Shown here in pieces: positions 16,713-35,077 of a stretch of 35,934 bases of DNA. The translations under genes and the position numbers were made by a program. Within the stretch, counting starts at the first letter, position 1. Every line of letters starts with the position of its first letter. Below the pieces are notes generated by a model that had not been told where the DNA came from, searched no databases, and saw only the letters and a list, made by a program, of their open reading frames with translations. Source of the stretch: Phycisphaerae bacterium (GTDB lineage: Bacteria; Planctomycetota; Phycisphaerae; Phycisphaerales; UBA1924); contig JAEUIV010000034.1 of the NCBI GenBank assembly GCA_016795005.1, positions 1 through 35,934 of the forward strand, given 5' to 3'.

Positions 16713-19700
16713 CTATCCCAGGTCCGCCAGACGGGCGCGCATCGCGTCCCGCTCGGCCTGCTTTTTCGAGAGTGACTGCCTGGTTTCTTCGACCAGATGG
16801 GGCGGCGCCTTGGCCGCGTACCCGGGGTTATTGAGCCGTCCTTCGATCACGCCGATGTCCTTTTCGAGCCGTGCGAGAGCCTCCGTGAGCCGGGCCTTCT
16901 CGTCGGACGGCTCGGCGGCGTCCACCAGGTTGGACAGCGCGCACCCGCGACCCTCGAAGAGGAACGGCGCGTCCATCGCGCCGGCGGCCTCAACGGACAC
17001 CTTCTCGATTCCCGCCAGCGCCTCGACGATGCCGCGCCATCCCGCGACCGCCTGCGCGGTTTGTGCGTCGGCGTGCAGCGTGACCTTGCGTCTCGGCTCG
17101 ACGCTCTTGGCGGAACGCACCTGGCGCACCTGCTCGACCAGCGCCTGGAGCCTGGCGAACTCGCGCTCCGCCGCCTCGTCAAGGAGCGCCCCGTCCGCTT
17201 CGGGCCAGCCCGCGAGGCAGAGGAGTTCGTGATCCCGCAGGGTCAGCCCCGGCACGTCCCCGCGGCCGAGCGGGCGGAGCGCGCCGTGCAGCACTTCGGT
17301 TACGAACGGGGTGATGGGGTGCAGTAGACGGAGGATCGAATCGAGCACGCGGTGGAGCACCACGCGCTGCGCGGGAACGGATTTCACGGTGGGCTTGATG
17401 GCTTCGAGGTACCAATCGCAGAAGTCCCGCCAGAAGAGGTCGTACATCAGTTCGGCGTAGCGCGAGAACTGGTACTCGGCGAGGGCCGCGTTGACCTGCT
17501 CGACCGTGCGGGACAGGCGCGAGAGCATCCAGCGATCGGGGAGAGAGAGCGAAGAAGAAGACGCGAGCGGGACGCCCGCGCCATGAGTGCCCGCGGGCAG
17601 AGGTGAAGCATCGGCGCCTTCCAGATTCATCATGGCGAAGCGTGCGGCGTTCCAGAGTTTGGTGCAGAAGTTTCGGCCGACATCGAAGCGCGTGGAGCAG
17701 TTGCGCGCCTGGGGTGCGTCGGGGGTGGCCTTGACGTTGCCCGTGGCGACGCCGTAGGCGCTGACCATTTTCTTCTTGCACGCGGGGCAGGTCTGGTTGG
17801 GGGAGGCGACCTTGTACCCGGCGGGGCTGGTCATCCACACCGGCTCGAAGGCGTGTTCGCAGTGGGGGCACATGAGGTCGACGCCGAGGCGGACATCCTG
17901 TGTCCCGGTGGTGATCTGGCAGAGGACGTGCCGGAGCGCGTCCGTCCCGTGGGAGTGAACGATGTCGAGCGGGTCCACGCCGTTGCCGAGGCTCTTGGAC
18001 ATGCGCTGCCCGTGGCCGTCCTGGACGACGGGGTTGATGTAGACGTGATGGAAGGGGACGGGGCCGCTCCCCTGCCCGTTCTTCGAAAGATCTCCGCCCG
18101 CAAACGACCATCCCTGCGGCATCAGGTACCGGTTGAACATCGTCATCCGCGACACCCACAGCGTGATGATCTCGCGCGCCGTCGCAAGAACCGCCGAGGG
18201 ATTGAAGGCTTCCAGCAGCCCCTTCATCTCGGACTTCGGCTCGGGCCAGCCGAGGGTGGACATGGGCCAGAGCGCGGACGAGAACCATGTGTCGAGGACG
18301 TCAGAGTCTTGATTGAAGTTCCACTTCGACTCAAGTTCGGCTCGAAGCTTGTCGTCGGCTCCAAACGGGTCACGAATCGCGACGAAGAATGGATAGTCGA
18401 CCAAATCACTCGCGGCAATACCTTGCGTCTGTAAGGGGTTCAAAACTTTTGCGCGCCCGCTGGTCTCGTAAGGCGTCGTCAATTTTTCAAACTCACCCAT
18501 CGCAGCACTGCCAGTCGCGCTGACCGGCACGCCTCTCCACACCGGAATCCGATGCCCCCACCACAGCTGCCGCGAGATGCACCAATCGCGCAGGTTCTCG
18601 TGCCACGACTCGTACATCTTGGCGTAACGCTCGGGGAAGAATGTCAGCGCACCATCGCCGCTGGGTATCGCACTTTCTACCCCCCTCTCGGTGGGACGGA
18701 TTTGCAATCCGTCTCTACCCCCTCTACCGCCTTTGGTCTTTCTCGGCGTACGGCTGGCTCGGCCGGCCCAACGCCCGTCCGGCTCGTCATCATGGCGTTC
18801 GGGGGAGTAAGTAAACCGATAGTCCTGTGGAGTTTTGACCAGCCCCGCTTTCACGGGGTTGAAAACCATGTAGTTCCACTTCTCTGCAAACTCATCCGCG
18901 TCGCGGACAATGCGGTCGAAATACTCCTCCTGCCAAAGCGTGCCTTCCACGCCGCGCGACTTGTCGATCTCGCGGGCGCTGTGCCGCTTGATGCTCTGCA
19001 CGAGTTCGGGCAGCGGCTCCCACATCCCGTCCGGTCGCTTCAGCGGCGTGATCAACAGGTGAACATGATCCGGCATCACGGTGACCAGGTGAACCGCGGC
19101 CCGCTCGCCGTGCCAGAATGAGCAGGCGTCAAGAACGATCAGCCGCTCGGCATCGGAGAGTGTCCCACTCTTGATTCTGAATGTGACAAAGTAAACACTG
19201 CCTCCCATCTGCCAATGGGGAAGGTGCCTGCGGTGAATGGTCAGGGCCTCTGAAATACCTGCGGAAGAAGCAGGATCAGTAGAGGGGGTAGAGACGGATT
19301 GCAAATCCGTCCCACCAAGAGAAGGTAGGGAGGCGGCTGACGCGCTCCTCTGCCCCCCCGCCATCGCCCGCAGCGCACTCCCGCGCAACCGGTCATCCGT
19401 CACCTTGCAGTACCACTGATCGCTCAGGTACGGCTCCACCGGCACATGTGACCGGTAGGAATGCCCCACCGAGTGCCGGTACGGCGTCACCCTCTCCAGC
19501 AGCCCAAGGCGCTTGAACTCCTCGAGCACTTTCTCCCGCGCCTTCTCGCGCGAAAGCCCCAGGAACATCGACGCGCCGCCCACATCCGTCCAGCCGTGCC
19601 GGTCGCTGATCGAAGCATCCGGCGCCATCACGTTGATGATGCCCAGGTTGTGCCGCCGCCCGAGTTCGTAGTCGTTCGTGTCGTGCGCCGGGGTCACCTT

Positions 19701-20660
19701 CAGGAATCCTGTTGCGAACTTCGCCTTCGGGTCCACACCCTCGGCCTTCGGATCAGCCGCGGGCATCACCACGTAATCGTCCTGCACAATCGGGATCATT
19801 CGCCCCACCAGCGGCAGCTCGCACATCAACCCATTCAGCGCCACCGCACGCGGGTCCTTCGGGTTCACCCCCACCGCCGTATCACCCAGATAGGTCTCCG
19901 GCCGCGTCGTCGCCACCGTCACCCACGCCTGCTGATCAGCAGGATTCCCCGATGCGCCGGGATACCCACGCTTCGCCAGCATCCCCCAACTCACCGGTGT
20001 CTTCTTCTCATCCACCAGTGGATACCGCAGGTAATAGAAGAAGCCATCCACCTCTTCCATTTCCACTTCGTCATCCGCCAGCGCCGTCTGCGAGACGGGG
20101 TCCCAGTTCACCAGTCGCTTGCCGCGGTAGATCAGCCCGTCCCGAAACAGGATGAAGAACGCCTCGCGCACGGCTCGGGCGCAGACCTCGTCCATCGTGA
20201 AGCGCTGGCGCTGCCAGTCGCAGGAGCAACCGATGGCCTTCAGTTGATCGGTGATGACCCGCTCGTACTCATCCTTCCAAGACTGGACGCGGGCGACGAA
20301 CTCGTCGCGTGCGAAATCCGTCCGGCGCTTGCCTTCCTCTTTCAGGATGCGCTGCTCGACGACGGTCTGCGTAGCGATGCCGGCGTGGTCGGTGCCGGGC
20401 ATCCACAGGACTTCGTAGCCGCGCATGCGGTGGACGCGGCAGAGGATGTCCTGGAGGGTGTTGTTGAGAGCGTGCCCGAGGTGCAGTCGAGCCGTGACGT
20501 TGGGCGGCGGGATGAAGATGGCATACGGCGGCTTCTCCCCGGACAGCACCCGATCCGGGTCGGCGTGAAACGCCCCCGACGCCTCCCAGCGCGACCGCAC
20601 CGCCGATTCGTGGTCGGCGGGCCTGTATTTCGCGGGGAGTGATGAGGTCGGCTCGGGCAT
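16713..20660 (-). CDS. valS: Valyl-tRNA synthetase with an in-frame RAYT transposase insertion
   Basis: Attaches valine to tRNA-Val. All class Ia landmarks are present: HLGH at 60-63 (HIGH motif), a CP1 editing domain with TTRPETYLGDTAV, the WCISRQLWWGHRIPVW core, RMSKS at 886-890 and a C-terminal coiled coil (DEKARLTEALARLEKDI onward). The 1315 residues exceed the usual 900-950. The excess is mainly an insertion at about residues 435-667, between SDQWYCKV...RAMA and GDGALTFFPERYAKMY, which encodes a complete REP-associated tyrosine transposase in the same frame with no stop. A second extra piece carries CPHC (931-934) and CPAC (958-961), a likely zinc ribbon. ATG 20660 is chosen by family alignment; the upstream extension overlaps rpsR. 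Confidence 0.96.
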   Translation of the reverse strand: MPEPTSSLPAKYRPADHESAVRSRWEASGAFHADPDRVLSGEKPPYAIFIPPPNVTARLHLGHALNNTLQDILCRVHRMRGYEVLWMPGTDHAGIATQTVVEQRILKEEGKRRTDFARDEFVARVQSWKDEYERVITDQLKAIGCSCDWQRQRFTMDEVCARAVREAFFILFRDGLIYRGKRLVNWDPVSQTALADDEVEMEEVDGFFYYLRYPLVDEKKTPVSWGMLAKRGYPGASGNPADQQAWVTVATTRPETYLGDTAVGVNPKDPRAVALNGLMCELPLVGRMIPIVQDDYVVMPAADPKAEGVDPKAKFATGFLKVTPAHDTNDYELGRRHNLGIINVMAPDASISDRHGWTDVGGASMFLGLSREKAREKVLEEFKRLGLLERVTPYRHSVGHSYRSHVPVEPYLSDQWYCKVTDDRLRGSALRAMAGGQRSASAASLPSLGGTDLQSVSTPSTDPASSAGISEALTIHRRHLPHWQMGGSVYFVTFRIKSGTLSDAERLIVLDACSFWHGERAAVHLVTVMPDHVHLLITPLKRPDGMWEPLPELVQSIKRHSAREIDKSRGVEGTLWQEEYFDRIVRDADEFAEKWNYMVFNPVKAGLVKTPQDYRFTYSPERHDDEPDGRWAGRASRTPRKTKGGRGGRDGLQIRPTERGVESAIPSGDGALTFFPERYAKMYESWHENLRDWCISRQLWWGHRIPVWRGVPVSATGSAAMGEFEKLTTPYETSGRAKVLNPLQTQGIAASDLVDYPFFVAIRDPFGADDKLRAELESKWNFNQDSDVLDTWFSSALWPMSTLGWPEPKSEMKGLLEAFNPSAVLATAREIITLWVSRMTMFNRYLMPQGWSFAGGDLSKNGQGSGPVPFHHVYINPVVQDGHGQRMSKSLGNGVDPLDIVHSHGTDALRHVLCQITTGTQDVRLGVDLMCPHCEHAFEPVWMTSPAGYKVASPNQTCPACKKKMVSAYGVATGNVKATPDAPQARNCSTRFDVGRNFCTKLWNAARFAMMNLEGADASPLPAGTHGAGVPLASSSSLSLPDRWMLSRLSRTVEQVNAALAEYQFSRYAELMYDLFWRDFCDWYLEAIKPTVKSVPAQRVVLHRVLDSILRLLHPITPFVTEVLHGALRPLGRGDVPGLTLRDHELLCLAGWPEADGALLDEAAEREFARLQALVEQVRQVRSAKSVEPRRKVTLHADAQTAQAVAGWRGIVEALAGIEKVSVEAAGAMDAPFLFEGRGCALSNLVDAAEPSDEKARLTEALARLEKDIGVIEGRLNNPGYAAKAPPHLVEETRQSLSKKQAERDAMRARLADLG
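18690..18727 (+). repeat. REP palindrome, left copy
   Basis: A 38-base repeat containing GACGGATTTGCAATCCGTC, an 8-base-pair hairpin with loop TGC, preceded by GGTGG and followed by TCTACCCCCTCTAC. It is an exact inverted copy of 19279-19316. In the ValS frame it reads as DGLQIRPT. A diverged extension (CTACCCCCCTCTC) lies just outside it. Confidence 0.95.
19279..19316 (-). repeat. REP palindrome, right copy
   Basis: Exact inverted copy of 18690-18727, with the same 19-base hairpin core. In the ValS frame it reads GGTDLQSVSTPS. The two copies bracket the transposase coding region, the arrangement expected for a RAYT acting on its own REP sequences. No third copy was seen in the window. Confidence 0.95.
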
Positions 20661-20796
20661 CGCGGGGTGAGTGTAACGCAGGATTTCCCAGCGGAATCGC
20701 GGCGTGGTATAGTTTCCGCCCCCCGTCGCCCGGCGGGTCGGGTGGGTCTTGACCATCGAGCCGGGCCGCGTAGTCCACGACGAGGAACAAGTTCCC

Positions 20797-21036
20797 ATGA
20801 CGCAGTTCAATCGCTTCGCCGGTCCCAAGCCCAAGATCACCAAGGCCTCCGCCTCGGGAGTCGATTACGTCGACTACAAGGACATCGAGAACCTCCGCCG
20901 GATGATGAGCCCCAACGGGAAGATCTTCACGCGGAAGCGTCTCTCCAGCACCGCACGCGAGCAGCGCCTGTTGGCGCAGGCGATCAAGCGCGCGCGGTTC
21001 ATGGGGCTGCTGCCCTACACCAGCGCCACGCTCTGA
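20797..21036 (+). CDS. rpsR: Small ribosomal subunit protein bS18
   Basis: A 79-residue ribosomal protein that binds 16S rRNA with bS6 in the platform of the small subunit. The family core is unmistakable: VDYVDYKDIENLRRMMS, GKIFTRKRLSSTAREQR and LAQAIKRARFMGLLPY. The start is ATG 20797 with GAGGAA upstream; an open extension to 20749 is not family-like. Unlike the common rpsF-ssb-rpsR-rplI cluster, it stands alone, divergent from valS and followed four bases later by a methionine sulfoxide reductase gene. The valS-rpsR intergenic region of 136 bases must hold both promoters. Confidence 0.98.
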   Translation: MTQFNRFAGPKPKITKASASGVDYVDYKDIENLRRMMSPNGKIFTRKRLSSTAREQRLLAQAIKRARFMGLLPYTSATL

Positions 21037-22823: not shown

Positions 22824-23111
22824 TCAGGCCGCCTTCGGCACCGCCAGCCGCGACACCCATTCCCCCAGTTGATTGAGCCGGACACCGTGGGCCGCGTAGT
22901 CGGTCATCCAGGAGTTTCCGTCGATGCGATACTGGAAGTCGTGGTCGCCCGGCGTCACGGCGGCCCGGGCGGTCCACCACCCGCCGCCCTCGTTCCTCAT
23001 GGCGACCGGGCGCTCGGACCAGCCGGTGAACGAGCCGAGCACCTCGACGGAGGCCGCGTTGGGAGCAAAGACCTTGAACTCCAGTTCACCCGAAGGAAGC
23101 GGTGTCACCAT
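22824..23111 (-). CDS. Small CBM48/AMPK-type glycogen-binding domain protein
   Basis: A 95-residue single-domain protein. The sequence EFKVFAPNAASVEVLGSFTGW, then GGWWTARAAVTPGDHDFQYRIDG, is the E-set/CBM48 pattern that binds alpha-glucans in branching enzymes and AMPK beta subunits. There is no signal peptide, so it is cytoplasmic. Free-standing CBM48 domains are seen in diverse bacteria; their role is unclear, perhaps glycogen-associated regulation. Its ATG (23111-23109) overlaps the divergent ATG of the next gene (23110) by two bases in CCATGG. Both starts cannot easily be used by abundant transcripts with separate ribosome sites, so one of the two may start elsewhere. Confidence 0.88.
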   Translation of the reverse strand: MVTPLPSGELEFKVFAPNAASVEVLGSFTGWSERPVAMRNEGGGWWTARAAVTPGDHDFQYRIDGNSWMTDYAAHGVRLNQLGEWVSRLAVPKAA

Positions 23112-24957
23112 GGGAGAAACTCCGTTCGATCCCGGACTTCGATGCCGTGCGCGACGGTGGCGTTGCGGAGATTCATCGGCGGCGGACGCGACCGACTTGG
23201 GCGCGGCACGCCGGATCGTCCGTCATCCTCGGGAAAGCCCGGTCGCGCCGGCACTCTGGGCGCTCCTGGCGTGCATCGGCTTCGGCTCCTGCGCCCCGAA
23301 GCGCGTGGCCGCGCCGGTCCAGGCAGCGGACACACCCGTGGACGTGTCGAACGCGGCTCGGATCAGTCGGGTTCGTTCGGCTGAGCCGGTGGTCTTTGCC
23401 CTCGCGGGCCGGAGCGTGGTGATCCCGATTGTCCCGGAGGAAGGAGCGGCCGGCGCATGGATTCCGGCGACCGCCCCCGAAGTCACATTTGTGACCGGCG
23501 AGCGCGTGCCGTCGGAAACATGGTGGATCAGCGGGTCTCCGGCCTCCGCCCCCGCCACGTGGGAGTGGTTGCCCCCGACGGCCGAGTGGCGCGCGTTCAC
23601 GCTCGCGGAGGTTGACACGGAGCGTCAGTCCGGCGTGGACCCCCTGACGACTCCGGGATTCTGGGCGGTGCTGGCGCGCCCGCCCGCGCGGGCGTCCGGG
23701 CGTGAGCTAAGGCTCGACGGGCGCGCGATGCCGGTGCGGTGGCTCGCGGACCCTCCCAGGGCGACGGACGTGGGCCGCGCGCCGCAGCCTCGGGCGTCGG
23801 CGGAGGCGCTCCGCGCGCTCGGCGCCCTGCTGCGCGAGGAGGCGCGCGATCCGCTCCGTCGATGGCGCGTCGGCCTGATGCTTGACCGCTGGAGCGCCGG
23901 CCGGCTCTGGAGGGACTCGACACCCCCGCCCGTGCTGGAGCCGGAAGCGCTCGAAGCACTCGCGGCACAGAATGAATGGCGCTGGCGCGCCGCGCTGGCG
24001 GCATTGGGCCGAGCCGGCCCGGACACCGCCGCGGACGTCCTTGCTCGGCTGACCGCGGTCGTCCTCTCACCCGATGGCGTGCTGCTGCCGGCATGGCCCC
24101 TGGACGACGCGGGCGTGGCGCGGCTGAGGACCACGCTCCTCCGCGCGGACACGGAGGATGACGATCGACTGAACGAGGCGCAGGCGTGGCTGGCGTCGCT
24201 GCCCCCGGCCGTCGCCTGGGTGGTCGATGACGGACCCGTGGTCCCGTCGGGAGTGAGTGAGAAAGACGGCGCCTCGGCGCGACGGGTGCGCACGGCGGTT
24301 TCGGAACTGACCGGAAAGCGCGCGCGAGTCAGCATCACCCCCGAGGGGATCACCCCCGACGATTCACGGATGGTCGAGGAGCATGAATCGATCGTCATGA
24401 TGACGGAGGCCGCGGTCGGCACTCGCGCGATCGAGCCGCTGAGGGTGCAGGTCGGTCGATGGAACGGGCGCGTTGCGTTCCGCGCGACCCCGGTGCCGGT
24501 CTCGCCTCCGGGCCTGACGATCGGCCCGTTGCTGCCTCAATGGCGCATGGCAGGATGGGCCATCGGCACCCCCGGCGCCGCGGACCCCGAGTGGACGACC
24601 GCCGGGCTGCTGCACAAGTCCGCCGACGGAAATGGGTGGGAGGTCTACGTGGAGTGCCGCATCTCCCCGGAGGCGGAGAGTCTGACCGGCGACGTGGTGC
24701 GCTTTTATTGGGGCGCGGAGGGTTCCGCCGAGCGAGCGGTCGAGGTGAAAGCCCCGACACGCGCCGAGGCCCAGAGAGATCGGTGGACGGCGGTCGTGCC
24801 GGTGCCGCCCCGGGCGGTGGAGAGCGACGGGACGATGCGCGTGAGCATCGAGCGCGTGGACGCCCGCGGCGCACGCTCGTCGTGGCCGCGACCCATGATG
24901 CCGGGAGAGAGGGAGCCATCGCGGGCGCTCGTCAACCTCAACGCATGGGGCGAGTGA
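23110..24957 (+). CDS. Predicted lipoprotein of unknown function
   Basis: A protein of up to 615 residues that I do not recognise. A hydrophobic segment ALWALLACIGFGSC about 60 residues in resembles a lipoprotein signal, which suggests that the true start is the in-frame TTG at 23197, giving a normal short basic n-region. The ATG at 23110 overlaps the divergent CBM48 start. The mature part begins with beta-rich sequence (VVFALAGRSVVIPIVPE). It then has an Ala/Leu/Arg-rich helical middle (about 240-360) and a C-terminal beta region with FYWGAEGSAERAVEVKAP. It is convergent with the GH13-like gene (24 bases apart), and both are exported. Function unknown. Confidence 0.8.
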   Translation: MGETPFDPGLRCRARRWRCGDSSAADATDLGAARRIVRHPRESPVAPALWALLACIGFGSCAPKRVAAPVQAADTPVDVSNAARISRVRSAEPVVFALAGRSVVIPIVPEEGAAGAWIPATAPEVTFVTGERVPSETWWISGSPASAPATWEWLPPTAEWRAFTLAEVDTERQSGVDPLTTPGFWAVLARPPARASGRELRLDGRAMPVRWLADPPRATDVGRAPQPRASAEALRALGALLREEARDPLRRWRVGLMLDRWSAGRLWRDSTPPPVLEPEALEALAAQNEWRWRAALAALGRAGPDTAADVLARLTAVVLSPDGVLLPAWPLDDAGVARLRTTLLRADTEDDDRLNEAQAWLASLPPAVAWVVDDGPVVPSGVSEKDGASARRVRTAVSELTGKRARVSITPEGITPDDSRMVEEHESIVMMTEAAVGTRAIEPLRVQVGRWNGRVAFRATPVPVSPPGLTIGPLLPQWRMAGWAIGTPGAADPEWTTAGLLHKSADGNGWEVYVECRISPEAESLTGDVVRFYWGAEGSAERAVEVKAPTRAEAQRDRWTAVVPVPPRAVESDGTMRVSIERVDARGARSSWPRPMMPGEREPSRALVNLNAWGE

Positions 24958-24981: not shown

Positions 24982-27939
24982 TCACTTCGGCGTGACGATC
25001 CACCACGCGGAGGACCACGGCTCGATCGTGCTCGGCGCGCCGGGCGCCGAACCGCGGAAGGCCGCGGTGGGAAAGGGTCGATCCTGTCGATTGACCGCGC
25101 CGACGACGCGCAGGCCGTTGAGCGACCGCTCGAAGGCGAACACGTTGGAATCGCCGCTGTCGATGGATCGGGTCGCACCGTACCGCAGGACCGGCGCGAG
25201 CGATGGCTGAGTGCGGAGCCGCAGCCAGCGCGCGTGCTCGGCCCGCGCATCGGCATCGGCGCGGCCGTTCCACTTGATCAGGGTCGGGACGCCGGGATTG
25301 CCCCCTCCCCATGCGCCGATCTCCTCTCCCGCGGCGATGGTCGGCGCGCCGGCGTAGAGGCATCTCAGGGCAAGCCCCATGAGCACGGAACGCCGGGCCG
25401 CCGGAGTCGGCTCCTTTCCGTCTGAGACGCTCTCCAGCATGTTTGGACTGGCCAGGATGGCGCCCGCGGCGTCGTTGAACACGGGGAGCAGCGCCGCTTC
25501 GAGCGCTCGCGCGGTCATCCCGGGGCGTCGGCCGACCCAGTCCGTCACAGCCGACGCGAACGGTGCGTTTGTGTGCCCGTCGAAGCAATCGTCCTCAACT
25601 CGGAATGGCCCGGGATCCCGCAGGTCCGCGACGACAACGGCCTCGGGATTGATGGATCGGACCAGCGCCCGCCACTCACGCCAGAACTCTCCAGAAAGGT
25701 TGCGCGGCGAGAGCACGCGCCAGCCGTCGATCCCGTCGGAGGGGTTTCCGTCGCCGTTGGGGTCCATCCACCTCCGCGTGACCGCGAACACGAACTCGCG
25801 CGTCGGCGGAGCCAGCCCGCCGCGCGGTTCGCGGCGGAAACGGGGCAGCGCGGGGTTCTGATCCGCCGCGCCCCACGACGCGAGCCGGCCGTCTTCGCCG
25901 AACACCAAGGAGAACCAGCCGGCGTACGGACTCTCTCGCCCGTGGAGCGCGACATCTCGGAACGCGAAGTTGTCAGCGGTCGTCTGTCCGAAGTCGGCAT
26001 CGAGCACGACACGAAGTCCAGCCGCCCTCGCCGCCGGAAGAAACTCATCGATGAAAGAGCGGTCGGCCGCGCTCCAGCCCCACGTCTTCGGGTCGCCCGT
26101 CCCGTCGATCGCCTCCGCGGCCGAGGCGTTCGGCGCGGCGAGCGACGGGTCGATGTGCCGATGATCCCGCGTGTCCCGCTTGTGCCAGGACGGCGACTCA
26201 AAGATCGGACTGAGGCAGAGCGTCCCGACGCCGAGGTCGCGGAGTTCGCCGAACGCCTGCGCCAGCCCCTGGAGATCACCGCCGGGTGAATCGGGCGCGG
26301 CGGGGTCATTGAGCGCGTTGCCGTTCCGAAAGCGGCTGACGGGCACCTCGTACCAGACCGATCCCAGCGCCCAGGCCGGTCGGTCCGTGTCCGGTTCGAT
26401 GCTCGCCGAGTAGGGGGGAGTCGTGTATGAGTCCGTACCGTCGGTCAACGTGAAGGAGTAGAGCGCCTGAGGCTCCCCCGTCATCACGCGGGCCGACCAC
26501 CGATCAAAGCCGCCGGCGTTGGTGCCGCGGGTCAGCGGAACCTGCACGCGCTCGCGCCCCGAGGCGGCCGCCGTTTCGACGGTCATCACCACGCCCGTGA
26601 CATCGCCCGGGAGCGTGGAGAGGCCGATGTCCGCCAGACCCAGCGCGCGGGAGATCGGGACAAAGTCAAGCCCCGACCCGGGGTCGTGCCGCACGGCGGC
26701 GCGGTCGATCGAGTTGGGCTTGGCGTCGGGGAACTCCTTCGCGGACGGGCCGACCTGCATGACGCTCGCGGGCGATCCTCCCGGTCCGATCGCCGCCGAG
26801 CGCGCGGCGGGGTCGATCGCTTCGATCGAGTGATTGATGAGAAAGCGGTAACGCTGCTCACCCGCCGGCGGGTTGATGATCGTGAAGAACGACCCGTCCG
26901 CTCGCGCGGCGAGTTCCACCGCTCCCGGTCGGCCCGGGCGCGCCCAACGGTTGAAGTCGCCCACCAGGTGAACGGTCTCCGCCGGCTCGCTCGGGGTGAA
27001 CGCGAAGGACCGCCAGTTGCCGGGGATGAGCATGAGGGGCAGCGACGGATCGCGCTGCGTGACGACCGAACCGTCGCGCAGTTCGACGGCGTAGGTGCCC
27101 GCGGGCACCCGCACGTTCTGCGTGCCGACCGTTTCGCCCTCGCCCGCGCTCACCTCGGCGGCGAACAGCTCGGTGTCCCGCGCGAACGCCACCACGGCCC
27201 GGCGAACCCCGGGCGAGACCGGCTGGAGCGCGACCGTCCGCGTGTTGTGCCGGTCCTCCGCGGTCGCGTAGCGGAAGAGCGCCTCGGCCTCAATGTTCAG
27301 GTCCAGCTTCTTCTCGATCACCTGCCCCGCGTCCGAGAGCCTGATCGTGAGCGGGAGCGGACCTCGACCGTTGAGGACGATCTGAACGCGCCGCCCGTAC
27401 CGGTCGAGGGCGCGCTGCGCCCCGAGCCGCTCGCTCGGCGCTTCGAAGGAGATCATCCCGCGGTCCCAGCGGTCAACCGTGAGCGTTCGAGAGAAATCGA
27501 TCAGAATCGATCGCCCCTCGATCAGCGGCCCGAAAAGCCGGGCATCGAACACGGTCCGCTCCGCCTTGACACACAAAAACGTCCATGTCCGCTCCGGCGC
27601 GTTCAGGATGAGGCGAAAGACCCCGTCTCCGGGGACAAAGAGGGTCAGGTTCTCTCCCCGCTCGTCGAGCGAGTCCGCCTTTGCTCCCCGGCCGAACGAT
27701 TCACGCGCATCATCGTCCTGCCGGATGAGCCGGAACTCGTAGTCGCCGGCGGAAAAGGGCCGCTCGATTACGAGCCGGGACGAGCCTTCCTGTTGCGGCG
27801 TCAACCTCCACGAATCGTCGCCCGGGTTCCAGTCGTTGAATGTCCCGACCGCTCGCCACGTCTCGCCCGCGCGGACGCCGCCGGTCACCGTGAGCAACGA
27901 GAGCAGAAACGCGAGCAGAATGTGGCGGCGGTTGAACAT
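24982..27939 (-). CDS. Secreted multi-domain GH13-like protein, probably catalytically inactive
   Basis: A 985-residue exported protein (signal peptide ending GGVRAG). N-terminal and mid regions contain CBM48/E-set-like modules: ETWRAVGTFNDWNPGDDSW near residue 25 and VHLVGDFNRWARPG near 325. The rest is a GH13 barrel of the neopullulanase/cyclomaltodextrinase type, for example LSPIFESPSWHKRDTRDHRH. The catalytic signatures are altered. Region I reads LDADFGQTT instead of D-x-x-x-N-H. The nucleophile position after DGWR is Leu743. The acid/base position in VVADLRD is Asp772 instead of Glu. No H-D pair is seen in the last motif. It is likely a glucan-binding pseudoenzyme. Start ATG 27939; tmk ends 29 bases upstream. 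Confidence 0.92.
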   Translation of the reverse strand: MFNRRHILLAFLLSLLTVTGGVRAGETWRAVGTFNDWNPGDDSWRLTPQQEGSSRLVIERPFSAGDYEFRLIRQDDDARESFGRGAKADSLDERGENLTLFVPGDGVFRLILNAPERTWTFLCVKAERTVFDARLFGPLIEGRSILIDFSRTLTVDRWDRGMISFEAPSERLGAQRALDRYGRRVQIVLNGRGPLPLTIRLSDAGQVIEKKLDLNIEAEALFRYATAEDRHNTRTVALQPVSPGVRRAVVAFARDTELFAAEVSAGEGETVGTQNVRVPAGTYAVELRDGSVVTQRDPSLPLMLIPGNWRSFAFTPSEPAETVHLVGDFNRWARPGRPGAVELAARADGSFFTIINPPAGEQRYRFLINHSIEAIDPAARSAAIGPGGSPASVMQVGPSAKEFPDAKPNSIDRAAVRHDPGSGLDFVPISRALGLADIGLSTLPGDVTGVVMTVETAAASGRERVQVPLTRGTNAGGFDRWSARVMTGEPQALYSFTLTDGTDSYTTPPYSASIEPDTDRPAWALGSVWYEVPVSRFRNGNALNDPAAPDSPGGDLQGLAQAFGELRDLGVGTLCLSPIFESPSWHKRDTRDHRHIDPSLAAPNASAAEAIDGTGDPKTWGWSAADRSFIDEFLPAARAAGLRVVLDADFGQTTADNFAFRDVALHGRESPYAGWFSLVFGEDGRLASWGAADQNPALPRFRREPRGGLAPPTREFVFAVTRRWMDPNGDGNPSDGIDGWRVLSPRNLSGEFWREWRALVRSINPEAVVVADLRDPGPFRVEDDCFDGHTNAPFASAVTDWVGRRPGMTARALEAALLPVFNDAAGAILASPNMLESVSDGKEPTPAARRSVLMGLALRCLYAGAPTIAAGEEIGAWGGGNPGVPTLIKWNGRADADARAEHARWLRLRTQPSLAPVLRYGATRSIDSGDSNVFAFERSLNGLRVVGAVNRQDRPFPTAAFRGSAPGAPSTIEPWSSAWWIVTPK

Positions 27940-27968: not shown

Positions 27969-28649
27969 TCAGGCGAAGCGGGCGGCGCGGCCTTCCAGCG
28001 CGCGGAGCATGTCGGCGGTCACGCGATCCGGGTCGCGCCGCGCGTCGATCACCGCGTAGTGCTCGGGATCGCGCGAAGCCTGATCGAGGTACCCGGACCG
28101 GACCTTCCGATGAAACTCGGCCCCCTTCTGCTCCATCCGGTCGAGCAGCGGATTCAGCCGCGACTGCGCCGTCTGCTCATCGACATCAAAGACCAGCACC
28201 AGGTCAGGCCAGCACGCCCCCGGCGTGCCCGGCGTGCCGCAGGCGGCGCACGCGACCGCCATGATCTCGTCAGCGGGCAGCCCCCCCGCCGCCCCCTGGT
28301 ACGCGAACGTGGATGAAACGAAACGGTCGGCGAGCACCAGTTCCCCGCGCGCCAGCGCCGGGCGGATGCGCTGCTCGACCAGTTGCGCCCGGCTGGCCAT
28401 ATACAGCATCATCTCGCACCGCAGCGCCATCTCGGTATGGATGGGATCGAGCAGGATGTCGCGGATGCGCTCGCCGACCTCGGTGCCGCCCGGCTCGCGC
28501 ACCTCGCACACCGTCATCCCGGCCTCCCGCGCCGCATCCATCAATCGGCGGAACTGCGTGGACTTCCCGCTCCCGTCCGGACCGTCAAACACGATGAACC
28601 GCCCGGCGTAGGCGCGGAGGAAGGAAGTTTCGGCGAGTCCGTTCGGCAC
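27969..28649 (-). CDS. tmk: Thymidylate kinase
   Basis: Phosphorylates dTMP to dTDP in the cytoplasm. The P-loop FDGPDGSGKST lies near the N-terminus, the dTMP-binding REPGGTEVGERIRDILL follows, and DRFVSSTFAYQGAAGG is the conserved DR-Y/S-S motif. The lid region near SRLNPLLDRMEQKG lacks an extra Arg-rich stretch. The GTG at 28649 puts the P-loop at the usual distance (about 20 residues); an ATG at 28706 would add 19 residues starting just after cysS. Neither has a clear ribosome site. It lies in a minus-strand run after cysS and before the GH13-like gene. Confidence 0.95.
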   Translation of the reverse strand: MPNGLAETSFLRAYAGRFIVFDGPDGSGKSTQFRRLMDAAREAGMTVCEVREPGGTEVGERIRDILLDPIHTEMALRCEMMLYMASRAQLVEQRIRPALARGELVLADRFVSSTFAYQGAAGGLPADEIMAVACAACGTPGTPGACWPDLVLVFDVDEQTAQSRLNPLLDRMEQKGAEFHRKVRSGYLDQASRDPEHYAVIDARRDPDRVTADMLRALEGRAARFA

Positions 28650-28713
28650 GCGGCGGATTGTAGTGACGCACGAAACCCGCGTGTGCTCCGATGATCCACC
28701 CAGCATCGCGGCG

Positions 28714-30320: not shown

Positions 30321-31328
30321 TCAAGGCGTGCAGGTCGCGTTCCAGGAGGTGAGGACGGCGGTGATGTCGGCGAAGTTGACGGTGTTGTTTCGATCGGCGT
30401 CGCCGTATTGCTGGCACTGCGGGTTCGCGGGGCTGGCGAGGTAGACGTCGTCGATCTGGATGTGGGCGGGGGCGTCAAATGCGCCGAATCGGAGTTCGGA
30501 CGTAGCGCCGGCGGCGACGAGAACCAAGGTGAAGTGCGCCCACCCCCCGCCGCTGGCCGGCGCGGGCTGGGCGGTGTAGACGGGCTGGCCGTTCCAGAGG
30601 ACTCTGAGTCGATCGCCGCTGTACCCGGCGTTGTAGGCCCAGAACTGGAGGACATAGACGCTGCCGGGCTGGGTCGGGACGGTCTGCCAGATCTGATCGT
30701 CCTGACCATTGAGAGCACCGAAATAGGCGCCGTAGGTGCCCGTGTGCGCTTCGGTCGTGACGCTGAACAGCGTTCCGGTCGGGGCGGGCATGGTGTTCCA
30801 TCCGGAGAAATCGCCGGATTCAAAGGATGGGTTCACGATGAGGTTGTCAGGCTCGACGGAGACATCGTCGAGCAGAATCGATGCCGGGCCGTCGAACGCG
30901 CGGAAGCGAAGAAAGGTTGAGGGCGCGGTGCCGGTGACGGCGAACGTGACTCTGGTCCAGGCGCCGGGATAGGTCACGGGAGCCTGGTAGACGAGGAACT
31001 CGGTGCCCCATTCGACGGTAAAGCCGTCGTTGCCGATGCCGCTGTTGAAGATCCAGAAGGAGAGTGTGTAGCGGCTTCCGGCCGCCGTGGGGATGTACTG
31101 CCAGATCGAGTCGAACTGCCCCCCGGTGGCGCCGAACGACACGCCGTAGGTTCCGCTGTGCGGCACGAAGGCGACGCTGAAGAGGGATCCTGATGGGGCG
31201 GGGGCGGTGCTCCATCCTGAGAAGTTTCCGGTCTCGAACCCGCCGTTGACGACGAGGTTCGCGGCCTGCGCGGACAGGCACGAGACGGCAAGCACGAGGC
31301 CGGCCACGATCGAACGAACACAGGCCAT
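30321..31328 (-). CDS. Secreted protein with two carbohydrate-binding-like repeats and a dockerin-like tail
   Basis: A 335-residue exported protein (signal peptide ending SCLSAQA). It has two tandem beta-sandwich repeats of about 130 residues, each starting with a variant of LVVNGGFETGNFSGWS / LIVNPSFESGDFSGWN and ending in a LLDDVSVEP / IDDVYLASP strand. This is the layout of CBM4/9-like or DUF642-like domains. The C-terminus is a single dockerin/EF-hand-like segment, GDADRNNTVNFADITAVL, common in Phycisphaerae exported proteins. Start ATG 31328 with GAGAGGAG upstream. The substrate is unknown. It ends 20 bases before cysS. Confidence 0.9.
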   Translation of the reverse strand: MACVRSIVAGLVLAVSCLSAQAANLVVNGGFETGNFSGWSTAPAPSGSLFSVAFVPHSGTYGVSFGATGGQFDSIWQYIPTAAGSRYTLSFWIFNSGIGNDGFTVEWGTEFLVYQAPVTYPGAWTRVTFAVTGTAPSTFLRFRAFDGPASILLDDVSVEPDNLIVNPSFESGDFSGWNTMPAPTGTLFSVTTEAHTGTYGAYFGALNGQDDQIWQTVPTQPGSVYVLQFWAYNAGYSGDRLRVLWNGQPVYTAQPAPASGGGWAHFTLVLVAAGATSELRFGAFDAPAHIQIDDVYLASPANPQCQQYGDADRNNTVNFADITAVLTSWNATCTP

Positions 31329-31542
31329 GACAGCATCGCTCCTCTCTTCGGCGCACGCCGATCGCTCCCGGCGGGCCTTGCGCCATGGGAAACCCGCCGC
31401 ATGATCATAAGGCGTCCGCGACGCGCCGGACCAAGCCGTTCCGCGACGTCCATCGCTTGGAGGTGGAGCCTGCATGATCCGCCCGCGCCTCGGAGATCGA
31501 GCGCAAGGCGTCCGATAAACCGGCGGCGTGAGACCGATCGGT

Positions 31543-32928
31543 TCAGGCGGGATGAGATTCCGTCGTGGCTCGGCTTGTGGGCTGCTGGTCGGCGATCGGC
31601 GGGTGGGCCTCATCCGAGGCGTCTTCCGCGGGGAGTTCGACGGCGGCGACACGGACCCTGAGAATTCGCGTCGGCTCGGCCTTGAGAACGGTGACGCGGA
31701 ACTCGTCGGTCTCCAGCGTCTCACCGGCGACGGGGATATGCCCGAACCGTGAGAGCGCGAACCCGCCGACCGTGTCGTAGTCCTCGCCCTCGGGGATCGA
31801 GATGTTCAGCGGCTCGAGTTGCTCGTTGGCGTCGATGATGTAGGCCCGCGCGTCGATGTCCGCTGAGCGGTCGGCGTGGTTGACATCGATCGCAGGAACG
31901 GTGTCGGTGTTCGGCTCGTACTCATCCTGGATCTCCCCGACGATCTCTTCGAGCAGGTCCTCGAACGTCACGAGGCCCGTCGTACCGCCGTACTCGTCGA
32001 GGACGATCGCCAGGTGGACCTTGCGGACCCGAAGTTCGTACAGCAGGTCGGTCAGCGGCTTGGTCTCGGGCACCCACACCGGCCGCCGAAGGACGGGCTT
32101 CAACCGGAACGTCGTGGGGTCCGATCCGAGGTACTTGATCAGGTCCTTCGCGTACAGAACCCCCGCGATGTGATCGAGGTCTCCCTGATACACCGGGATG
32201 CGGCTGTGACCTCGCTCCTCGATGAACTTCTGGATGCTCGCCAGGTCGTCCGTCAGTTCGAGCGCCTCGATCTCCGTGCGAGGCGTCATGATCTCCTCGA
32301 CCGTGCGGTCCTTGAACCCGACGATGGATTCGATCATGTCCCGTTCGTTCTCGTCGAGTTGTCCCCCGCGTTCCCCCTCGGCGACCGCCGAGATGATCTC
32401 CTCCTGGATCTGCTCTTCCTTCGTCAGGTGTTCGGCCCCGACGAGCCGCTTCACCGCGCTGTCCACGAACGAGATCGCCCGCAACGGCCACGCCAGCGCG
32501 TGGACCAGCCTCAGCAGGGCCGCAAACGCGCAGAGCAGGCGCTCGCCCGCATGTTCCGCGATGCTCATGGGCAGCACGATGCCGAAGAAATACACGATGA
32601 TGCACGCGAAGACCGTCCCCGCCAGCAGCGACGGCGCGTTCAGCGCCACGCCGGAGGCCTCGCCCCGCTGCACGACGCGGAACACGTTGAAGAGCAGCAC
32701 CGCCGAGACCGTGGTCGCCACGTTGCAGACCGATCGGAGGAACCCCGTCGCCAGCACGTGCCCCGGCACATCCGCAAGGATCCCCTCGATCAGCGATGAT
32801 CGGCCCCGCGCCTCCACGATCGCCTGCAGCCGGACCACGCTGTAATCCTGCAGCGCATAGTGCAGCGCCGAGAGAAGAGTCCCCAGCGGCGCCGCGACGA
32901 GCAACACCCACAACGCGGGAGCGGTCAC
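31543..32928 (-). CDS. HlyC/CorC-family transporter (CNNM-CBS-CorC)
   Basis: A 461-residue inner-membrane protein. Four hydrophobic segments at the N-terminus (for example LWVLLVAAPLGTLLSAL and FACIIVYFFGIVLPMSI) form the CNNM domain. A paired CBS domain follows (VEEIMTPRTEIEALEL, then VHLAIVLDEYGGTTGLVTFEDLLEEIVGEI). The C-terminal CorC_HlyC domain includes DYDTVGGFALSRFGHIP. Family members export magnesium or cobalt ions and respond to nucleotide binding at the CBS pair. The GTG start at 32928 overlaps the ybeY stop (GTGA) and is preceded by GGTGGAG, so translation is coupled to ybeY. The ybeY-corC order is typical of many bacteria. Confidence 0.94.
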   Translation of the reverse strand: MTAPALWVLLVAAPLGTLLSALHYALQDYSVVRLQAIVEARGRSSLIEGILADVPGHVLATGFLRSVCNVATTVSAVLLFNVFRVVQRGEASGVALNAPSLLAGTVFACIIVYFFGIVLPMSIAEHAGERLLCAFAALLRLVHALAWPLRAISFVDSAVKRLVGAEHLTKEEQIQEEIISAVAEGERGGQLDENERDMIESIVGFKDRTVEEIMTPRTEIEALELTDDLASIQKFIEERGHSRIPVYQGDLDHIAGVLYAKDLIKYLGSDPTTFRLKPVLRRPVWVPETKPLTDLLYELRVRKVHLAIVLDEYGGTTGLVTFEDLLEEIVGEIQDEYEPNTDTVPAIDVNHADRSADIDARAYIIDANEQLEPLNISIPEGEDYDTVGGFALSRFGHIPVAGETLETDEFRVTVLKAEPTRILRVRVAAVELPAEDASDEAHPPIADQQPTSRATTESHPA

Positions 32929-33680: not shown

Positions 33681-34856
33681 TCAGCGGCCCGGAGGGACAT
33701 CGACCGCGGTCAGCACCTTGGGCGGGAGCGACTTCAACAACTTCGCGGTGACGGGGTTCGAACGGATGGTGGTGTTCGACGTGATCGGCGGCGGAGCCGC
33801 GGAAGCAGCCGCAGGAGGCGGCGGGGGCGGTGGGTTGATCTCGTTCAGCATCGCCCGGATCGTGGCGCCGCCCCGGCCGGCGAAGAAGGAGTTGTACCCG
33901 TCGCGGATCGCCGGATCACGGAAGACATCCCAGAACACGAATCCCTGCGCGCCGGCCCGGGCCGAGTAACGGAACATCGAGATGAGGTCGAGTTCGTTCA
34001 CGAACTGGCCGGTGTAGATCGGGTTGTTCTCGGAATAGCGCATCCAGATGACCGCGTAGACCGGCTTTCCCATCGACCACGTCTTGGCCAGTTCGATCTT
34101 GCTCGCCACGCCGTTGGAATAGTTTGTGATGACACGCTGACCCGGCGACGCGGCCTGCCCGACCGGGATGCTGTAGTCCACGGCGTACACATCCGGGAAG
34201 AATGCGTCCATCTCGGCAAAGAGCGGGCGGAAATCCTCCTGCTGCGACTGCGGATAGAAATAGGGGAAACCGTAGTAGCCCCAGGTCGCGCGGGGGCGGA
34301 GCGCCTTGCACTCGCGGATCGTCCCGACCATGAAGTCCATCGCCGCGGCCTCGAACTCCTCGTGCGCCCGCTGTTCCACCTGCGCCGCGGTCAACGTCGG
34401 GAACCGCGCCCGGACCCAGTCACGAGACATCGCCTTCATCCGTTCGTTCGAGAACAACTCCCAGTTGGGGTGCCACGACTCGAAGTCGAGGATCCCCATC
34501 CCGTCCCACTCCGGATCGGGGAGCGCGCGGATGACGTCCGCCCGGACCTTGGCGATGTGCGCCGCCCAGTTGGTCTTCTGGGGGATGCCCTCGTTGTCGA
34601 CCCACACCCGGCCCGTCGCGGGGTCGGTTCGAATACGCGGGTATTTGCCGATCAGGTGCTCATAGAACATGTAGCACTTGTCGCGCTGGATCGGCAGGCC
34701 CGAGAAGTTGACGTTGGCGTCCTCCGGCCCGGTCGGGTTCCAGATCAGCGGGACGCCGGTGCCGCCCGAGGGGGGAGAGGATTGGGCCTGCGCAAACACG
34801 CCGCAGGCCGCAAGGGTTCCGACCGCACAGGTTGTCATCAGTACTCGTAGCGTCAT
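33681..34856 (-). CDS. GH56 hyaluronidase-like secreted protein
   Basis: A 391-residue exported protein. Features match glycoside hydrolase family 56: CYMFYEHLIGKYPRI, then MGILDFESWHPNW with Asp124 and Glu126 in the positions of the catalytic D-x-E of animal hyaluronidases, then AMDFMVGTIRECKALRP and TWGYYGFPYFY. Family enzymes cleave hyaluronan or chondroitin by a substrate-assisted retaining mechanism. GH56 is known mainly from animals, so a bacterial copy is notable. The signal region contains LAAC, allowing a lipoprotein, or cleavage after FAQAQ. The C-terminus is Pro/Ala-rich. ATG 34856 is chosen because GGAGG lies seven bases upstream, ahead of another ATG at 34862 that is too close. 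Confidence 0.9.
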   Translation of the reverse strand: MTLRVLMTTCAVGTLAACGVFAQAQSSPPSGGTGVPLIWNPTGPEDANVNFSGLPIQRDKCYMFYEHLIGKYPRIRTDPATGRVWVDNEGIPQKTNWAAHIAKVRADVIRALPDPEWDGMGILDFESWHPNWELFSNERMKAMSRDWVRARFPTLTAAQVEQRAHEEFEAAAMDFMVGTIRECKALRPRATWGYYGFPYFYPQSQQEDFRPLFAEMDAFFPDVYAVDYSIPVGQAASPGQRVITNYSNGVASKIELAKTWSMGKPVYAVIWMRYSENNPIYTGQFVNELDLISMFRYSARAGAQGFVFWDVFRDPAIRDGYNSFFAGRGGATIRAMLNEINPPPPPPPAAASAAPPPITSNTTIRSNPVTAKLLKSLPPKVLTAVDVPPGR

Positions 34857-35077
34857 CAGCATTCCTCCGATAAGCGAGGGGAGAGAGCCGCTCTCTTTGT
34901 TGACCTCGTTGCGGAGTATCCGATTCGAGTCACGCACCGGCGAGCCGTCGCCGGCGATGAAAGTTGAATCGAGGGTGTCTGGAGCGCGCGGGCAACACAT
35001 CCGGTTGGCGCGGTTGGTGACGTGCGTGACGACAAACACCATGATGACGCCTCGTTCGGGGATGGATAATCGCCGCG

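Follow-up and report, generated by a model that had tools for sequence, protein, structure and literature searches.

The minus strand of contig JAEUIV010000034.1 of a Phycisphaerae bacterium (assembly GCA_016795005.1) carries a large gene for a putatively exported protein that resembles the amylases of family GH13. It was analysed within positions 1 to 35,934 of the contig (referred to as the window, 35,934 nucleotides). A first-pass annotation, made from the sequence alone, had described the protein as lacking its catalytic residues and had proposed a sugar-binding pseudoenzyme with a structural or sensing role. The locus therefore raises three questions: whether the barrel is catalytically dead, whether the loss is shared by related proteins, and whether the gene is decaying or kept for another function.

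Gene and domain organization

The open reading frame encodes 985 amino acids and contains no internal stop codon (Table 1). In a sequence search, the closest GH13 match of the C-terminal half was TVAII/neopullulanase (E 1e-35), and the 985-aa protein scored 34.6 bits with the Pfam Alpha-amylase profile (cut-off 22). An AlphaFold model was computed from an alignment of 40 sequences (the window's own protein plus fetched loci) and reached a mean pLDDT of 88. The barrel and C domain of the model were overlaid on 6a0j, a cyclic maltosyl-maltose hydrolase, with Z 42.0 and an rmsd of 2.2 Å over 417 residues; matches to the barrel made up most of the output of the structure searches. Residues 411-984 were overlaid on TVAII (1g1y_A) with Z 41.2 over 520 residues, the rmsd of 6.9 pointing to a domain shift between the model and TVAII. 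The (beta/alpha)8 barrel and the GH13 conserved regions were thus found by sequence, Pfam profile and structure overlay, and the barrel recognised in the first-pass annotation was confirmed. An N-terminal E-set domain stands immediately before the barrel (overlay from residue 411), as in GH13_20 neopullulanases.

Architecture (N domain, barrel and C domain) and fold are those of the GH13_20-type neopullulanase/cyclomaltodextrinase/TVAII enzymes, with which the structural motifs GIDGWR and HK.DT.DH are also shared. In contrast to TVAII-type enzymes, the 985-aa protein has additional N-terminal X25-like, linker and CBM48-like modules and is putatively secreted. The X25 profile and both CBM48-type profiles (PF02922, 17.0 bits versus 22.4; PF16561, 21.0 versus 26.8) scored below their curated cut-offs, so these modules are labelled "-like" and not treated as formal members. 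The label "CBM34-like" was given because the module overlays the N domain of TVAII/neopullulanase.

Table 1. Positions of the features of the 985-aa gene and its upstream neighbour in the window
Feature	Position	Strand	Remark
Whole gene, 985-aa putatively secreted GH13-like pseudoenzyme	24982..27939	-	stop codon included
Signal peptide, aa 1-24 (MFNRRHILLAFLLSLLTVTGGVRA)	27868..27939	-	putative, by sequence inspection
X25-like E-set module, aa 25-125	27565..27867	-	GDW..GH loop lost; Pfam PF22058 E 0.006, below cut-off
Beta-rich linker region, aa 126-300	27040..27564	-	fast-evolving across all relatives
CBM48/AMPK1-CBM-like E-set module, aa 301-395	26755..27039	-	PF16561 E 4e-4, PF02922 E 0.007, both below cut-off
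N-domain (CBM34-like) E-set module, aa 396-520	26380..26754	-	overlay with TVAII/neopullulanase N domain
(beta/alpha)8 barrel, aa 521-880	25300..26379	-	catalytic residues and loops lost; strongly accelerated
C-terminal beta domain, aa 881-985	24985..25299	-	accelerated when tested with the closest outgroups
Site of deleted catalytic-face loop	26284..26295	-	about 48 aa versus congeneric homologue
Region I, G651-Q652	25984..25989	-	relatives carry Asn and His (one Tyr)
Leu743	25711..25713	-	position of nucleophile Asp (TVAII D325); no GH13 catalytic residue
Asp772	25624..25626	-	position of acid/base Glu (TVAII E354); no GH13 catalytic residue
Ser839 (TVAII D421 position), then Asp840	25420..25425	-	transition-state stabiliser Asp absent
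tmk	27969..28706	-	29 bases upstream of the 985-aa gene, same strand

Catalytic residues and active-site loops

Alignment with TVAII placed Leu743 on the nucleophile and Asp772 on the acid/base, and both residues are those named by the first-pass annotation. The altered region I that it reported was found as well, with TVAII N243/H244 replaced by Gly651/Gln652; Asp239 and Arg323 of TVAII are kept as Asp647 and Arg741. Region IV, LDSHDTER, reads LESVSDGK. TVAII H420 and D421 fall on V838 and S839 in an ungapped alignment, and MAFFT leaves both unaligned; the final His-Asp pair is absent as had been stated, though one Asp, D840, adjoins, one residue from the D421 position. In the model, L743 and D772 stand at the ends of strands beta-4 and beta-5, respectively, and S837-D840 come after beta-7, so the losses sit at the expected structural positions. 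The annotation had also considered that Asp and Glu could be supplied to the active site from other segments; the strand positions of the model show none, nearby D840 excepted.

The changes extend beyond the triad. Catalytic-face loops that the congeneric homologue possesses are missing: three deletions, each in frame, took out about 48, 28 and 15 residues. Among 87 columns conserved at 95% or more in 106 homologues, 27 are lost in the 985-aa protein, including those of TVAII Y204, N243, H244, D325, E354, W356, Y374, H420, D421, D465 and R469. Y204, W356, Y374, D465 and R469 are sugar contacts in TVAII-ligand structures. The columns kept include structural Gly, Pro and Trp positions and R323. 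The congeneric homologue lost 1/87 of these columns, and the worst other sequence, L057 from a truncated contig, lost 17/87.

With the triad, many pocket residues and the loops lost, the canonical retaining mechanism is unavailable. As judged from alignment and model, hydrolysis or transfer of glucans by this mechanism is shown to be no longer possible, and the protein is almost certainly dead by the GH13 mechanism. Continued hydrolysis of alpha-glucans with a non-canonical triad has a precedent in the GH13_45 alpha-amylase BmaN1, whose triad is likewise aberrant and which works with a His replacing the second Asp (PMC5347038); here D772 remains acidic, and D840 could stand in for D421. BmaN1, however, keeps two of the three catalytic residues, the nucleophile Asp and the Glu (PMC5347038), whereas the 985-aa protein has a Leu for the nucleophile and has also lost most of the conserved pocket residues, and we regard this reading as extremely improbable.

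Distribution of the losses among homologues

The homologue set comprised 106 distinct sequences, drawn from Planctomycetota and from a small number of further phyla. Every one of them (106/106, the congeneric one included) has the nucleophile Asp and the acid/base Glu, and the second Asp is kept in each of the 103 that can be aligned there. The congeneric homologue (L004 = L033), which is sister to the 985-aa protein, has a complete active site. The sequences examined, a partly fetched set of the matching genomes, yielded no further dead barrel. The loss is thus peculiar to one genome and no conserved subfamily trait; a conservation of the losses among close homologues, which the first-pass annotation had suggested examining, was not borne out. 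A conserved pseudoenzyme family likewise found no support in this set, and the event is lineage-specific. The pseudoenzyme reading itself is well supported, since the triad is lost while 106 homologues keep it: the protein descends from enzymes whose activity is predicted from their residues, has lost the catalytic residues and has an intact frame.

Restriction to a single genome, a draft of 225 contigs that is 87% complete, would also be expected of a chimera, a binning artefact or a sequencing error. The 985-codon frame is open, third-position G+C is uniform along the gene (83-87%), and the sister relation to the congeneric homologue is well supported in both the barrel tree (SH-aLRT 96) and the N-domain tree (99); an artefact is considered very unlikely.

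Rates of evolution and selection

Relative rates were compared by Tajima's test with the sister L004 and the outgroup L031. The comparison within the genus covers the N domain, the barrel and the C domain; the congeneric amylase lacks its N-terminus at a contig end, in a genome that is 64% complete. Unique substitutions in the barrel numbered 126 in the 985-aa protein versus 10 in the sister (P 1e-26), those in the CBM34-like N domain 7 versus 8 (P 1), and those in the C domain 29 versus 5. The acceleration of the barrel held with all seven outgroups, that of the C domain with four of seven at P < 0.05. Terminal branches in the barrel tree were 1.65 for the 985-aa protein and 0.013 for the sister, and in the N-domain tree 0.22 for both.

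Between the two congeneric genomes, synonymous substitutions have reached saturation, with dS estimates at their bounds; absolute dN/dS was set aside for this reason, and only relative rates and dN were used. Identity with the sister at four-fold sites was 0.42-0.53, and other genes common to both genomes gave similar values (dnaA 0.49, MarR 0.49, pirin 0.52, MBL 0.69). The acceleration of the barrel thus reflects a change of constraint and not age, and so much change implies relaxed catalytic constraint on the barrel during a large part of the time over which it accumulated.

The fast change of the barrel may have been adaptive if the domain was re-purposed for another catalytic or ligand-specific activity. 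This would agree with a barrel branch of 1.65 next to a module with 0.22, with a new acidic residue, D649, near the end of strand 3 and with D772 and D840 near the pocket. The pocket-forming loops, however, were deleted and not replaced, and a single sequence cannot reveal a conserved new pocket; we consider re-purposing improbable.

A decaying gene, in which catalysis became useless and which under weak or no selection is simply not yet broken, would be found in one genome only, as here; it would fit the acceleration of barrel, C domain and X25-like module alike and a gene position that differs from that of the congeneric copy. On the other hand, the adjacent N domain evolves as fast as in the sister, whose active site is intact. 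Simulated neutral drift to equal divergence gave a mean of 12 stop-creating mutations and a minimum of 3 (300 runs), as against 0 observed, and every indel is in frame. Neutral omega = 1 was rejected for the barrel (2dlnL 75-91), omega being relative only with synonymous sites saturated. The normal N-domain rate together with zero stops versus about 12 expected is hard to square with a freely decaying gene, and decay is rated as rather unlikely. The data argue that catalysis was lost in one domain while selection still acts on the protein, and not that the gene is dying. We think it quite probable that it is retained as a protein; its occurrence in one genome only counts against long-term conservation.

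N-terminal modules and possible binding

The first-pass annotation had stated that the N-terminal E-set modules are kept. This holds for the CBM48-like module, with 11 of 12 family-invariant positions and the FN.W motif, and for the CBM34-like module, with 6/6, the middle modules offering few conserved positions for such scoring. It does not hold for the X25-like module, which keeps 15 of 24 invariant positions, has lost the conserved Trp/His loop (GDW..GH) and is accelerated; not all binding capacity was therefore kept. In genome G022, a 466-aa secreted protein (L023, 1498-2898, minus strand) consists of X25-like, linker and CBM48-like modules and has no GH13 barrel. The N-terminal modules can thus exist on their own; this protein likewise lacks the X25 Trp.

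The N domain of GH13_20 enzymes also makes dimer contacts, and a role in binding a partner is therefore just as reasonable as one in binding glucan. A sugar-binding, structural or sensing role, as first proposed, is plausible, its sugar-binding part being only partly supported by the conserved positions. The role that we consider foremost is the binding of a glucan or a partner, and a binding or scaffold role would be likely if the protein is indeed retained.

Genomic context

The genes cysS, tmk and the 985-aa gene lie on one strand, tmk 7 bases downstream of cysS. The order cysS-tmk is conserved in relatives, and the amylase is not found behind tmk there; the congeneric amylase adjoins pirin-MarR-gatC-dnaA. 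The corresponding block of the genome studied here (80% nucleotide identity) contains no amylase. From the differing positions, the 985-aa gene was either relocated or is a paralogue. In the first case it may be the orthologue at a new site; in the second, its active counterpart may have been lost or may belong to the 13% of the genome that the assembly lacks. A second, catalytic copy was not found in the 87%-complete assembly with both proteins and PF00128 as queries. No partner enzyme was identified in this assembly either, where the only other GH13 protein found is pullulanase-like, with catalytic motifs that look intact by eye.

Several neighbours in the window were recorded. A 677-aa open reading frame (22924-24957, plus strand) is convergent with the 985-aa gene, has no Pfam or NCBIfam match and was not found in the 64%-complete congeneric genome. 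A possible second glycan-binding protein with two CBM_4_9 stretches (PF02018) is encoded at 30321-31724 (minus strand), the 3' end of its gene overlapping the annotated start of cysS. The product of 33681-35042 (minus strand) matches GH56 hyaluronidase (PF01630, E 1.9e-41), and its stretch LDFESWHPNW contains a candidate D-x-E motif; such a protein is, to our knowledge, unusual for a bacterium.

The valS gene (16713-20843, minus strand, 1376 aa) carries an in-frame insert at about aa 500-740. The insert contains a Y1/HUH transposase domain of the IS200-like, REP-associated type (PF01797, 23.5 bits versus cut-off 23), flanked by the stretches GGTDLQSV and DGLQIRPT, which resemble inverted REP-type ends. 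Most of it is matched, within open frames of 1261-1517 aa, in the congeneric genome (71%) as well as in G039, G017, G016, G051 and G004; for most of the remaining relatives, matches are confined to the valS parts on either side of it. A transposase thus stands in frame inside an essential tRNA synthetase, recurrently across relatives.

Proposed history and relation to known proteins

The ancestor would have been an active secreted GH13 enzyme of the neopullulanase/cyclomaltodextrinase type. On its own lineage, the barrel would have been stripped of all three catalytic residues (nucleophile, acid/base and second Asp), of its active-site loops and of most of its subsite residues. The reading frame stayed open, the putative signal peptide and the fold of the barrel persisted, and both the CBM48-like and the CBM34-like module were preserved. 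The protein would then most likely be non-catalytic outside the cytoplasm, its middle modules possibly binding an alpha-glucan or a partner and its barrel perhaps serving as scaffold. It is probably kept for such a non-catalytic job, e.g. binding of glucans or partner proteins. The account as a whole, a lineage-specific dead GH13 barrel in a protein kept for binding or as scaffold, is favoured with some reserve.

Non-catalytic glucan binding outside the cytoplasm is carried out by starch-binding proteins of the SusE/SusF type, a possible functional analogue; their fold is unrelated, and no homology is claimed. The protein 4F2hc (SLC3A2) is a membrane-anchored animal transporter subunit without CBM-like modules, unlike the 985-aa protein. 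Its ectodomain, an ancillary subunit, resembles the 985-aa protein in having the alpha-amylase fold without a conserved active site (PMC8537225). Plant isoamylase ISA2 is a catalytically dead GH13 paralog kept by selection in a glucan context, and thus shares the loss of the catalytic residues (PMC12510319). ISA2 pairs with the active ISA1 and is conserved across Chloroplastida, whereas the 985-aa protein is bacterial, putatively secreted, of the neopullulanase type and confined to a single genome. The non-catalytic GH13 proteins known so far come mainly from animals (4F2hc, PMC8537225) and plants (ISA2, PMC12510319), and a limited search of open-licence literature found no described bacterial case of the neopullulanase type. 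The conversion of a secreted GH13 enzyme into a non-catalytic glucan- or partner-binding protein within one genus, as a bacterial counterpart of plant ISA2, is put forward tentatively.

Within one genus, the dead barrel can be compared directly with a sister whose active site is intact. Which parts of the protein are still needed is shown by the differing rates of its modules. Automatic annotation would call the protein an alpha-amylase and so credit the organism with an activity that is probably absent.
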